A DNA stretch of 64,000 nucleotides from an uncultured SAR86 cluster bacterium (GTDB lineage: Bacteria; Pseudomonadota; Gammaproteobacteria; Magnimaribacterales; D2472): positions 372,001 to 436,000 of the forward strand of contig CAJIYN010000001.1 of NCBI GenBank assembly GCA_905181645.1. The letters run 5' to 3'. Positions 12,585-19,363 of the stretch are shown one piece after another. The notes under the pieces were generated by a model. It did no database searches. It had not been told where the DNA came from and worked only from the letters and a program-made list of their open reading frames with translations. Position numbers and translations under genes: made by a program. Every line of letters starts with the position of its first letter. The stretch's first letter is position 1.

Positions 12585-12644
12585 TTTAATGCATCAGCTG
12601 GAGATATTTCATTAAATCTAATTTGATTTAATATTCTAAATATA

Positions 12645-12728
12645 ACTGCAAAGGGGTGGTCATTCTGATCTGAGATCTTAACGGGGACCCTTTGAACCTG
12701 ATCCATTTAATAATGGCGGAGGAATTGC
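12645..12728 (+). promoter_or_regulatory. TPP (thiamine pyrophosphate) riboswitch
   Basis: Carries the THI-box core: GGGGTG near the 5' side, CTGAGA in the middle, ACCCTTTGAACCTGATC, and a 3' GGCGGAGGAA in place of the usual GGCGAAGGAA. GCAA at 12648-12651 can pair with TTGC at 12725-12728 as part of the closing stem. The aptamer ends directly at the ATG of the TonB receptor and contains its GGAGGA ribosome site, so control is probably at translation initiation without a separate expression platform. Confidence 0.93.
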
Positions 12729-14837
12729 ATGAATATCATTAGAACTAGTCTATTTATTTCTTTATTTCTTTCTTTTTTTAGTTCTCAATTAATATCTGAA
12801 ACTATCGAAGAGATTATTATTAAAGGCGATTGGCGCCAAACCTCAGCAGATCAAGAAGATTCAAGTGTTCTTGTACTTGACGAGGAGATAATAAAATCTC
12901 AACCACTTAAACACTTTGAACAACTTTCCTACTTGGTCCCAAATTTAAATTTTGCTGCTAGTGATTCAAGAGCGCGTTATTTCCAAATCAGAGGCATCGG
13001 CGAAAGATCTGGATATCAAGGAACTCCTAATTCTTCAGTAGGATTTTTGATAGATGATATTGATTATTCAGGACAGGGGGGAATTGCTACAACTTTTGAT
13101 CTCGATCAAATAGAGATTTACAGAGGTCCCCAGGGATCCAGGATTGGAGCAAATGCTTTAGCTGGGTTAATTTATATAAAAACTAAAGATCCAACTGATA
13201 AGTTTGAAGGCACAAGCGAGTTAACAATAGGCTCATATGGAACTAAGAGTACTGGCGTTGCTTTTGGCGGACCACTTAAAGTAAATAATGATCTTTCTTA
13301 TAGGCTTGTTTTGAGAAAAGATAAATCTAATGGTTATAGAAAAAATTTATACCTCAATAAATCTGATACATCCAGAAAAGACGAGACAACCGCTCGTTTA
13401 AAAATTAAATGGAAATTTGATGATAAAACATCAGTTGATTTTTTGGTTATGCAGGTCGACATGGATGATCCTGCTGATATTTGGACTATAGATGGAAGTT
13501 TAAATACTCTATCTGATAGACCGGGGATGGACTCACAAAAGACTAATGCTTATGGATTAAAAGTATTTCGTGCATTAAATGGTTTTGAAATTCAAAGTCT
13601 TACAAGCATCACTGATACCAATGTTATTTTTAGTTATGATGCTGATTGGGGTAACACAGATTCGCATTTTCCTTATGTGTATGATTATTTCTCTGAAACC
13701 CTTAGAGATAGAAGCTCATTTAGCCAAGAATTTAGACTAGTTTCAGATAAAGCAGACTTTTTAACCAATAATCTTATTGAATGGGTTGCCGGAATAAACT
13801 ATTTAGAGTTAAAAGAGACAAATTTGAAATACGACGATGGTATTTACGGCGATCCATCAGATCCTTATGGACCTTATACCAGCGAATCATCATCCTCAAG
13901 CTCATATAAATCAGAAAACTTGTCATTTTTTGGAAATGTAGATTATCTTCTTTCAGAGTCAACGAAGATCTCTTTAGGTTTGAGAATGGAAGACTGGGAG
14001 TCAAAATATTTTGATTCTTTTGGAGAGTCTTTTAATCCGTCGAATGATATGTCGGGAGGAAAAATATCTCTAATAAAAAATATAAAAACTGGATCTAATA
14101 TTTTTATTAGTATTGCTAAAGGATATAAACAAGGTGGATTCAATCTTGGTTTAGGTTTGGGTGGCGATGTCACAAATAAAGATCTTACATATGATCCAGA
14201 ATTTCTTACCAATTATGAAATAGGTATTAACTCAAGAATTTTAGATTCCAGATTAAATATTGAAAGTGTTGTATTTTATTCTGACAGAGAAGACCAACAA
14301 GTTTTAATATCAACTCAAGTAGATCCTAAAGATCCAAATACTTTTTCCTTCTTAACTCAGAATGCTGCTGAGGGAGTTAACTATGGATTAGAAATAAATC
14401 TTGATATGGAAGTTACGACTGATATTAATATATTTGCTAATGTTGGAATCCTTAAAACTGAAATAAAAAATTGGCAGTCTCGACCTGACCTTGAAGGAAG
14501 AGCACAAGCACATGCTCCAGAAAAAAGTTTTGATTTTGTAGAAAGCTGAACGTGGATTTCTAGACCTATCTTATCAGCAGATGTGACTGGTAAAAGTGAA
14601 TTTTATTATTCAGATTCTCATAATAATAAATCAAAGTCATATAACCTAATGAATATAAATTATGGCTATGAAAAGAATAATTGGACTTATACATTATGGG
14701 TTAGAAATGTATTTGATAAGTACTATTCAGTTAGAGGTTTCTATTTTGGAAATGAGGCTCCTAACTTTGCAGATACACTATATGAGAGACATGGAGATCC
14801 AAGACATTTAGGTGTTACAGTGAGATATGATTTCTGA
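12729..14837 (+). CDS. TonB-dependent outer-membrane receptor, predicted thiamine or precursor uptake (frameshifted)
   Basis: Outer-membrane active transporter. It has a signal peptide (LFISLFLSFFSSQLISE), a plug domain (VLVLDEEII, RYFQIRGIGERS, IEIYRGPQGSRIGANALAG) and a long beta-barrel (about 700 residues) that ends in the C-terminal aromatic RYDF. One frame break near 14545 splits off the last 95 residues, which include the NVFDKYY and RHLGVTVRYDF blocks. The TPP riboswitch immediately upstream and the PnuC-type gene overlapping by 11 bases point to a thiamine-related substrate; this is inference from context. Confidence 0.92.
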
Positions 14838-15415
14838 GTTAGTTAATCAGTATTGGATGGAAGCATTAGCCGTAATTCTTGCTATAATCTATCTTTTATT
14901 GGCTGTAAAAAAAGATGTAAGATGTTGGTATGCGGCAATATTAAGTTCAAGTCTGTATTTCTTCATAATGTTATCAGCAAACCTATATATGGAAGCATAT
15001 TTGCAAATATTCTACATATTAATGGCAATTTATGGATGGTTCCAATGGAATAAAGTCGATGAATATAATAATAAATTTATTGTAAAAACTTGGAGTATTA
15101 AACGGCATGTTATTGTCATTTCATCTATATTTATATCGGCATATGTGTCAGGTAGTTTATTAAATATATATACAGATGCAGCATTACCATTCATAGATGC
15201 CTTTACAACATGGGGAGCAATAATTGCTACATACATGGTGGCTAAAAAATTATTAGAGAACTGGATATATTGGTTTGTAATAGATTCAATATCAGTATTA
15301 TTATTTATGTCACGTGGATTATATAATAACTTCAATATTATTTTTTATCTATCTTATAATTATTTATTATGGATATAAGTCCTGGTCAAAAATAAAATAC
15401 GAAATGAATGCTTAA
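14827..15415 (+). CDS. pnuT: PnuC/PnuT-type vitamin transporter
   Basis: Inner-membrane facilitator of the PnuC family with about seven membrane segments. Motifs include VKKDVRCWYAAILSS, YMEAYLQIFYILMAIYGW (Y-x-E...Q..Y..M..YGW) and the C-terminal ENWIYWFVIDSISVLLF, which is the family core (W..W...D). A single indel at about 15370 hides the natural end, GYKSWSKIKYEMNA. In this TPP-controlled context the thiamine-transporting PnuT subtype is more likely than nicotinamide riboside transport. It overlaps the receptor upstream by 11 bases and the kinase gene downstream by 8. Confidence 0.9.
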
Positions 15416-16842: not shown

Positions 16843-17505
16843 ATGAAAGTATCTGAAGCAGTAGAATCAAGACAGTCTATTAGAGAGTATTTAGAAAAGC
16901 CTGTTGACAATAAACTTATAAGAGAGATCTTAGAAAAATCTGCAAGAGCAGCCAATGGGGGCAATCTTCAGCCTTGGAAAATTTTTGTTATAAACAAAGA
17001 GAGTATGATAGATTTTTTAAAACAACAGTCTGAATGGACTGATCCTGAAACCTCTGCTTACAACATATATCCATCTAGTCTTAAAGAGCCCTACAGAACC
17101 TCTAGATATCAGCTTGGAGAGCAAATGTATTCTTTGCTTAATATTAGTAGAGACGATAAGGAAGCGCGTTTTATGCAAGTACTAAAAAACTTTGAATTTT
17201 TTGGAGCTCCTGCAGCTATTTTTTGTTTTGTAGATAAACAAATGGGTCCACCTCAATGGTCTGATTTAGGAATGTTTCTTCAAACCTTTATGCTTTTAGG
17301 ACAAGAGGCAGGTCTTGATACGTGTGCTCAAGAGGCATGGTCTATGAAACAGGATAGTGTTAAGAGTTTTCTTGAGGTGGATGAGAGTTTGATGCTTTTT
17401 TGTGGCATGGCATTAGGGTATAAAGACCCTGAAGCTCTAATCAATCAATTAGATAGCGAACGTCGCCCTGTAGATGACTGGGCTACTTTCGTTATTAATC
17501 CTTAA
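16843..17505 (+). CDS. Nitroreductase-family flavoprotein
   Basis: FMN-dependent NAD(P)H oxidoreductase; the natural substrate is unknown. The 220-residue frame is intact. The FMN-phosphate arginines are in ESRQSIREY at residues 8-16, the second motif is ARAANGGNLQPWKIFV, and the later GLDTCAQEAW and GMALGY segments fit the nitroreductase fold. It ends 14 bases before a shared terminator facing proteorhodopsin. Confidence 0.9.
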   Translation: MKVSEAVESRQSIREYLEKPVDNKLIREILEKSARAANGGNLQPWKIFVINKESMIDFLKQQSEWTDPETSAYNIYPSSLKEPYRTSRYQLGEQMYSLLNISRDDKEARFMQVLKNFEFFGAPAAIFCFVDKQMGPPQWSDLGMFLQTFMLLGQEAGLDTCAQEAWSMKQDSVKSFLEVDESLMLFCGMALGYKDPEALINQLDSERRPVDDWATFVINP

Positions 17506-17519
17506 GAATTTTAAGCATA

Positions 17520-17548
17520 AAAAAACCCGGTATAAAACCGGGTTTTTA
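17520..17548. terminator. Bidirectional intrinsic terminator
   Basis: AAAACCCGGT (17522-17531), loop ATAAA, ACCGGGTTTT (17537-17546), flanked by A- and T-runs on both sides. The perfect 10-base stem can end both the nitroreductase transcript and the convergent proteorhodopsin transcript. Confidence 0.93.
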
Positions 17549-17569
17549 TTTAACTATTAAAGTTACTAA

Positions 17570-18319
17570 TTATGCATTAGATTCTTTAACTGCAACATGC
17601 CAGATAACTAAACCAAATAGAATCTTGTTAACAAAGTCAGCAAGATTATAAACAATGTTTAAGTTAGAAGCATATACGCCTTCGCCACCCATTAGGTAAC
17701 CAGCAGCATATCCAGCTGGGTATATAGCCCAACCAACTACTATAATTAGCATCATAGTATTGTATGCAGACATAACAGCAGGACTTGCAGTACTTACAGC
17801 AGCTTTTCCTTCACCCAAGTATAGAGTGTGGATCATGTATAACCATGCAGCCATTGCAACAACAAATGCAGGTAATGCTCCCATAATTCCAGCTTCACCC
17901 ATGTATCCAAATAAAAGCATTACTAGCGAACCGCCAAGCAATTTCTTGAATAATGAACCTGCAACATTAGTACATGCAGCAAGAATTAAGTAGAACTCAA
18001 CCATTAGTAATGGAACAGTTAGCAACCAATCAATATATCTAAATACTGTTGGCGTTTCACCAGTTTCAATCCATACACCTCTCATGTATAAGTAGTGCCA
18101 AAAAGCAATACCAGTAACAAGACCAGATACAGTTAACGATGTTTTCCACTTTGAGCTTACGTTATCTCTTTCAACAAAGAAGAAGACAGTTGCTGCTAAT
18201 AAAGCCGCAGTAACTAGCCAAAATGAAACACCAGTAAGGTCACTAGCTTGAAGATCACCGCCGCTAGCAGCGAATGATGGAAGTGCAATAGCACTAGTCA
18301 ATAATAATAACAATTTCAT
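17570..18319 (-). CDS. Proteorhodopsin, green-absorbing type
   Basis: Light-driven proton pump in the inner membrane with retinal bound as a Schiff base. The 249-residue frame is intact, with a cleavable signal (LLLLTSAIALPSFAA) and seven membrane helices. The proton acceptor Asp is in RYIDWLLTVPLLMVEF, where Leu at the spectral-tuning position indicates green absorption and Glu in VEF is the proton donor. The retinal lysine is in NLADFVNKILFGL. The sequence is very close to the original SAR86 protein. No retinal synthesis genes (crtEBIY, blh) adjoin it. A GGGGG ribosome site precedes the start, and a candidate Fur site and promoter lie upstream. Confidence 0.98.
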   Translation of the reverse strand: MKLLLLLTSAIALPSFAASGGDLQASDLTGVSFWLVTAALLAATVFFFVERDNVSSKWKTSLTVSGLVTGIAFWHYLYMRGVWIETGETPTVFRYIDWLLTVPLLMVEFYLILAACTNVAGSLFKKLLGGSLVMLLFGYMGEAGIMGALPAFVVAMAAWLYMIHTLYLGEGKAAVSTASPAVMSAYNTMMLIIVVGWAIYPAGYAAGYLMGGEGVYASNLNIVYNLADFVNKILFGLVIWHVAVKESNA

Positions 18320-18371
18320 ATACTACCCCCAGTAGTTCAATAAGAAATAACATAATTTCTTAAATATTAGA

Positions 18372-18386
18372 TGAGAATGATTCTCA
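18372..18386. promoter_or_regulatory. Fur-box-like palindrome at the proteorhodopsin promoter
   Basis: TGAGAATGATTCTCA is a perfect 7-1-7 inverted repeat matching the core Fur consensus pattern TGAnAATnATTnTCA. It lies 53 bases upstream of the proteorhodopsin start codon. On the minus strand a TATACT candidate -10 element (18396-18401), with a weak TTCGAG -35 at 16 bases spacing, sits 9 bases upstream of it, so the palindrome would cover the transcription start. Confidence 0.6.
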
Positions 18387-18571
18387 CCGTAGCTAAGTAT
18401 AGTAAATCTAATCAATTCTCGAAATCTTCACCCACAGTCATTTATATATAATATTTATATATATAAGATATCTTCTGGATGCTCTCTTAAAATGTTTTTG
18501 TTATATTGTAATTAAGCTCATCTATTTAAATACAATATGACATCTAAAAAAGATTTTTACTGGAATGAAAT

Positions 18572-19363
18572 ATGAAATACATAGCAACATTAATACTATC
18601 ATTTAACTTCTTTTTTGTTCACGCAGAATCATTAGAATTCTTGGAAGCAGAGGTGCTCTCGTTAAAAAACTCTAGTCCTGAAAGGATTCTTTTTGTGGGT
18701 AATAGTTATCTTTACTATAACGATAGTCTTCATAATCATGTACGCAGAATGGCCGAAGAAAGGTTTCCCGAAAGGACAAAAATGACAGCTTATAAATCCG
18801 CCACTATCGGCGGATCGAGATTGTCACACCATAACCTCGATCATCTTTTGGATTCAAAGAATATTGGTCTAAAGAAGAACTTTGAACTCGTTATTCTTCA
18901 GGGCGGGAGCTCAGAACCTTTATCAGAAGATGGTCGACATGCCTTTTATCGTCAAGTTGAAGAAAAGGTAGAAATGATTAGAGCTAAAGAGGGTGAGGCA
19001 TTGCTTTATATGATCCATGCCTATGTACCTCCTCATGAATTGTATGATCCTAAGATGATAGAGAAAATTAGGTACACCTACTTAAAAGCAGCAAATGATT
19101 ACGATGCAATGGTTGCGCCAATTGGAATAGCTTACATGAATGCTTACAAGGCAAACCCTGACATTAAACTTCACAAATTTTTTGACGGCACTCACCCCAA
19201 TATTCTCGGCACATATTTATCAGCATGTGTTCTGTATGCGACCATATTTAAAAAGCCATCTTCAGAAGTTCAATATAATTACTTTGGCGAGATTAGCAAT
19301 GAAGATCAAAAATTTCTCCAAGATATAGCTGATGAGACTGTGAAAGAATTCTTTAAGAGATAA
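18572..19363 (+). CDS. Secreted SGNH/GDSL-type hydrolase
   Basis: Exported esterase-like protein of unknown substrate. A signal peptide (ATLILSFNFFFVHAE) precedes an SGNH domain. The nucleophile block is RILFVGNSYLYYNDSLH, with Ser after GN; the oxyanion glycine lies in ATIGGSRLSHH; the catalytic Asp and His are in FFDGTHPNILGTYL. The GNSY form of block I and the DGTHPN form of block V fit the family. Intact at 263 residues. The 250-base region upstream holds the proteorhodopsin promoter and AT-rich sequence with no other feature seen. Confidence 0.8.
   Translation: MKYIATLILSFNFFFVHAESLEFLEAEVLSLKNSSPERILFVGNSYLYYNDSLHNHVRRMAEERFPERTKMTAYKSATIGGSRLSHHNLDHLLDSKNIGLKKNFELVILQGGSSEPLSEDGRHAFYRQVEEKVEMIRAKEGEALLYMIHAYVPPHELYDPKMIEKIRYTYLKAANDYDAMVAPIGIAYMNAYKANPDIKLHKFFDGTHPNILGTYLSACVLYATIFKKPSSEVQYNYFGEISNEDQKFLQDIADETVKEFFKR

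Follow-up and report, generated by a model that had tools for sequence, protein, structure and literature searches.

The classical gammaproteobacterial Fur box, TGATAATNATTATCA, is an inverted repeat of the 7-1-7 type (Baichoo and Helmann 2002, as cited in PMC3090418). A Fur-dependent energy regulon has been proposed in Pelagibacter ubique, a marine bacterium bearing proteorhodopsin (PR) (Steindler 2011, PMC3090418). That paper found no classical Fur box in Pelagibacter ubique, only relaxed motifs upstream of light-responsive genes. Iron has been considered together with PR in Photobacterium angustum S14 (Koedooder 2020), and low iron together with the rhodopsins of diatoms (Marchetti 2015), both as cited in an extract of PMC9040609. 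The same extract describes the PR of Vibrio as starvation- or light-controlled. The role of PR in bacterial coping with iron shortage, or in iron metabolism, is called unclear in an excerpt of PMC11833320.

The locus described here compares with these systems as follows. Like classical Fur boxes, it fits the degenerate motif TGAKAATNATTMTCA at 14 of 14 informative positions, lies over a predicted transcription start, belongs to a genome that encodes Fur and shares its motif with iron-uptake genes; it differs in that its target is a light-driven proton pump and not an iron gene. Whereas the Pelagibacter ubique motifs are relaxed, the SAR86 box is classical and lies on PR itself. The Photobacterium and diatom cases share with ours the idea of a rhodopsin that bypasses iron-rich electron transport, but no operator is described for them in the extract cited above, and the diatom case is eukaryotic. 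PR transcription is conditional rather than constitutive in Vibrio and would be so in SAR86, the signals named for Vibrio in that extract being starvation and light, not iron. Our literature search, outside which most subscription papers lay, turned up neither a previous description of PR under a Fur operator nor a paper joining SAR86 with a Fur regulon; given that coverage, both absences are weak evidence. Within the literature searched, proteorhodopsin and "Fur box" co-occurred only in the Pelagibacter paper (PMC3090418).

A predicted Fur-type operator at the proteorhodopsin promoter

The window is a stretch of 64,000 nucleotides (G000:C1:372001-436000) from an uncultured SAR86 genome, G000, of 1.33 Mb in 3 contigs; the nearest named relatives of its PR are likewise from SAR86. 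The features under discussion are listed below in window coordinates.

17570..18319, minus strand: proteorhodopsin gene (Pfam Bac_rhodopsin PF01036, 2.9e-40)
18320..18371, minus strand: 5' leader of PR, conserved, containing an AAGAAAT-loop-ATTTCTT hairpin as well as an arm, ACTAC-TGGGG-GTAGT, that surrounds the ribosome-binding site (hairpins read by eye)
18372..18386, minus strand: predicted Fur-type operator, a perfect 7-1-7 palindrome, spanning about +2 to +16 relative to the predicted transcription start
18387..18395, minus strand: spacer of 9 bases between -10 and box, 1 of 9 columns invariant across four species
18396..18401, minus strand: predicted -10 element TATACT, start predicted from sequence
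18572..19363, plus strand: DUF4886 gene, divergent from PR and some 185 bases away from the box

The predicted box upstream of PR is TGAGAATGATTCTCA at 18372-18386. Read on the PR strand it becomes TGAGAATCATTCTCA, the perfect palindrome TGAGAAT-C-ATTCTCA. A sequence-only reading of this DNA had described an exact 7-1-7 Fur pattern 9 bases downstream of a TATACT -10 candidate, and both statements are borne out: all 14 consensus positions match, and bases 18395-18387 separate the two elements. That reading placed the box 53 bases before the start codon, a position accurate to within one base, but the count is 52, with the start codon at 18319-18317. The box thus adjoins the core promoter, 9 bp after a conserved -10. 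If transcription starts 6-8 bases after the -10, as predicted, the box would extend from about +2 to +16. Across four members of the genus the -10 is TATACT, TATACT, TATAAT and TATAAT. As read by eye, the -35 is weak in all four (TTTCGA in G000, TTTAGT in two relatives, TTTTTT in one), and its spacing from the -10 is 17 bases in each.

The sequence-only reading was also correct that no iron gene adjoins PR. Its neighbors encode a nitroreductase, the DUF4886 protein and, at 12642-15378, a thiamine-uptake cluster in which a TPP riboswitch (RF00059) precedes a TonB-dependent receptor and a PnuC-type transporter. A search for PF15461, the beta-carotene dioxygenase family, gave no match in G000 and none in the controls either.

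The PR protein carries an RYIDW motif, retains D97 and E108, the carboxylates expected of a proton-pumping proteorhodopsin, and has leucine at position 105, which marks the green-absorbing type under the known tuning rule. Its coding sequence is a mosaic. Its 5' part, the first 280 or so bases, most resembles PR genes of its own genus, to which the promoter also belongs, while the remainder with the 3' flank (window 17500-18040, PR bases about 280-819 from the ATG) has 95-100% DNA identity to PR of G100/L018, from another SAR86 genus. Codon 105 falls within this exchanged part. Residue 105 is L in G000, G041 and G100 and Q in G044, G043 and G102, a pattern that fits an exchange of the color-tuning site with the Fur-box leader kept.

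Conservation of the box within the genus

The genus, here g1, comprises G000, G041, G042, G043 and G044. Absence of the palindrome from close PR orthologues had been named as grounds for refuting the proposed Fur control, but all four PR-bearing g1 genomes carry it at the same place with 13-14 of the 14 consensus positions; the fifth, G042, is 68% complete and gave no PR match. G000 and G041 share the same box sequence, G044 has TGAGAATTATTCTCA, which differs in the free central base only, and G043 has TGAGAATCATTCTCT (13/14). The distance to the ATG is 52 bp in G000, G041 and G044 and 54 bp in G043.

Mean pairwise identity among the four genomes is 0.93 for the box and 0.89 for the -10, against 0.37 for the spacer and 0.57 upstream of the -10. 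Box and -10 therefore stand out sharply on their upstream side. The leader is as conserved as the box (0.94), so conservation alone cannot single out the box on its downstream side. From 18320 to 18371 the leader is 100% identical in G000, G041 and G044, although their PR proteins fall to as little as 83% identity. The two leader hairpins, one of them around a GGGGG ribosome-binding site, suggest that PR may be under translational control as well.

The motif, its iron-gene targets and the regulator

Loose motif matching proved uninformative in this AT-rich sequence and was rejected: matches with up to 3 mismatches were no more common than in shuffles (6 vs 10.5), and therefore near-exact sites alone are informative. 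The exact sequence TGAGAATNATTCTCA occurs once in the whole 1.33-Mb genome, as the PR box. The degenerate motif TGAKAATNATTMTCA has 7 sites in G000 against 0 for the reversed control and, summed over 107 related genomes, about 198 against 5. SAR86 genomes therefore carry a real 7-1-7 motif. Among 107 distinct PR upstream regions, five score 14/14 and two 13/14; among 4,280 dinucleotide shuffles of such regions none reached 14/14 and 0.14% reached 13/14. Two strict sites of G000 lie inside coding sequence, at C1:835742 (a TonB receptor) and C2:8026 (a large repeat protein). Another, at G000:C1:367017-367031 (L177), lies across the point where a DksA-like gene is predicted to begin; the product of that gene has an N-terminal extension rich in lysine and alanine. 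Matches to the motif are therefore not all operators.

The loci at which strict sites recur across g1 are a TonB receptor gene, a ferric substrate-binding protein (SBP) gene, the intergenic region between katG and a peptidase S46 gene, and PR. The first lies just upstream of a TonB-dependent receptor whose best subfamily is siderophore receptor, below the cut-off. The second is just upstream of the SBP gene, and the best PDB match of its product is an Fe(3+) ABC substrate-binding protein (3.5e-100). The expectation that the PR box would recur at iron-uptake genes of the same genome is thus confirmed at the TonB receptor and the ferric SBP. Apart from the katG site, the recurrent positions are ordinary for Fur, and their motif is common to PR.

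The proposal also hinged on the presence of a fur gene, and one is present. A profile search with PF01475 found one locus in G000, in two overlapping frames, and alignment with G044 showed that small indels split the gene. It is intact in G041, G043 and G044, with 138 aa in the last. Several other G000 genes are split likewise (katG, fpg and a TonB receptor among them), and the stated completeness of 59.8% is in keeping with an assembly rich in indels. Against NF006999, the NCBIfam equivalog for the ferric iron uptake regulator, the protein of G044 scores 173 bits, above the cut-off of 146. The nearest PDB structure is 1mzb, the Fur of P. aeruginosa (9.7e-53).

The shared motif bears on a different view of the palindrome, in which it acts in the RNA: the start of the PR transcript would fold into a hairpin of 8 pairs (GGUGAGAAUCAUUCUCAUC) and thereby stabilize the message or tune translation, with no DNA-bound regulator. 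The predicted start lies just ahead of the box, the remainder of the leader is highly conserved, and the repeat was flagged computationally as terminator-like on the PR strand, all of which would suit such a hairpin. However, the probability that a 7-1-7 repeat of unrelated origin fits TGAKAAT, the Fur half-site, is about 3e-4, and the same motif fronts iron genes. At other loci of the genus the Fur sites (TGAGAAT-ATTATCA) are imperfect hairpins, and G043 breaks the outer pair yet keeps 13/14 of the consensus. We regard an RNA function without Fur as unlikely.

Distribution beyond the genus

The box had been expected at PR in other SAR86 genomes, which holds for the genus but fails for most of the family: about 100 of the 107 distinct SAR86 PR upstream regions are without it. 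This points to a lineage-specific gain, and iron control is not general. As read by eye, the box-less promoters are mostly TTGATA-17-TATCAT-like, and their leader has GGGGG. G102 (14/14) and G100 (13/14) have a box 98 bp upstream of PR, between a TonB receptor gene and PR, and G040 has one 134 bp upstream that adjoins a tRNA gene (read by eye). None of these three boxes lies over the core promoter.

A second SAR86 lineage (L034, L036, L053 and L055) carries, about 70-76 bp upstream of PR, a degenerate but conserved Fur-like dyad, TTGAGAAYNRTTCTTR, on the -10/+1 of a TTGAWA-17-TATATT PR promoter. The dyad scores 11-12 of 14, a value often reached by random regions, and its weight lies in its conservation. 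Relatives of this lineage (L046-L051) keep the TATATT and lack the dyad. Outside SAR86, no box of at least 13/14 was found at rhodopsin genes with readable starts in a sample of 369 class-level genomes, with three loci unread.

Fur activates transcription in some bacteria. A Fur-bound operator could therefore be mainly activating or anti-silencing, with PR higher when iron is ample, and in G102/G100 the box stands upstream of a TTGAWA-17-TACTAT-like promoter, a position that would allow activation. In g1, on the other hand, the box covers the predicted start, which is a position for blocking the polymerase, and we consider activation there improbable.

The katG-S46 intergenic element and the copied leader

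The katG-S46 site lies between the convergent katG and peptidase S46 genes. We rejected it as katG's own box, as it is downstream of katG and faces a conserved intergenic element. This structured element of about 120 nt (G000:C1:75385-75520; L174:2886-3021, minus strand; also L161, L167, L171 and L279) is 93% identical across four species and, among the 107 genomes, confined to g1. It folds into a closed three-way structure whose closing stem has a compensatory pair in G043, and it has no Rfam match. In G041 and G044 the adjoining Fur box comes with a TTGTAT-17-TATCAT promoter. In G042 (L279:1501-1637) the inner part of the element, between its terminal inverted repeats CGCACTCGAAGG...CCTTCGAGTGCG, has the opposite orientation with respect to the Fur box, an arrangement that is not expected of a plain sRNA gene. 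The element is a candidate either for a small RNA under Fur control or for a DNA element that can invert.

Next to katG, 68 bp of the PR leader including the box (window 18319-18386) are copied at G000:C1:75525-75592 with 67 of 68 positions identical. The copy is present in G000 only. Since the katG site of its relatives is flanked by different sequence, the copy at katG must be derived from the one at PR. It may stem from gene conversion by way of the Fur box that both loci share, or from an assembly fault.

Such a copy might be taken to mean that the palindrome is a chance or relic feature that merely travels with a mobile repeat or a conserved leader. The restriction of the copy to G000, its derived state, the greater age of the PR box (four species) and the match of that box to the genome's own iron-gene boxes make this very improbable. 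It is also very unlikely that the box serves the divergent gene or another plus-strand transcript and leaves PR unregulated: the region is indeed a divergent intergenic space, but the start of the divergent gene is about 185 bp away, no promoter-like plus-strand site lies near the box, and in G043, where a DUF4212/sodium symporter pair replaces the DUF4886 gene, the box is still 54 bp from PR.

Proposed regulation of proteorhodopsin by iron

It is probable that the palindrome is an operator for the genome's own Fur over the PR transcript start, with iron-loaded Fur repressing PR and low iron derepressing it. When iron is ample, a Fe(II)-Fur dimer would bind at about +2 to +16, beside the -10, and stand in the way of RNA polymerase. 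Once iron is limiting, Fur, now without its metal, would leave the site, and PR would be made. The blocking and derepression are proposed from the promoter geometry and from what is established about Fur. PR would then belong to a small Fur regulon together with the TonB-dependent receptor, the periplasmic ferric-iron-binding protein and the structured element 3' of katG.

PR needs neither heme nor iron-sulfur clusters to pump protons, so its synthesis when respiration is limited by iron would be reasonable. The physiological reason that we infer, along with binding, repression and induction at low iron, is proton pumping without the need for an iron-rich respiratory chain. The PR of Photobacterium angustum is reportedly induced in stationary phase whatever the iron level, a result that counts against iron control of PR.

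From these genomic patterns it appears rather likely, though we hold it with less assurance than the operator itself, that in one SAR86 genus PR itself belongs directly to the Fur regulon and is turned on in the iron-starvation response, and that other lineages independently gained weaker or displaced Fur-type sites. A conserved putative Fur operator on PR is a specific and testable regulatory link in one of the most abundant groups of the surface ocean. The patchy distribution of the box predicts which SAR86 lineages would respond to iron and which would not. If the proposed regulation is true, light-driven proton pumping would be switched on within the iron-starvation response.
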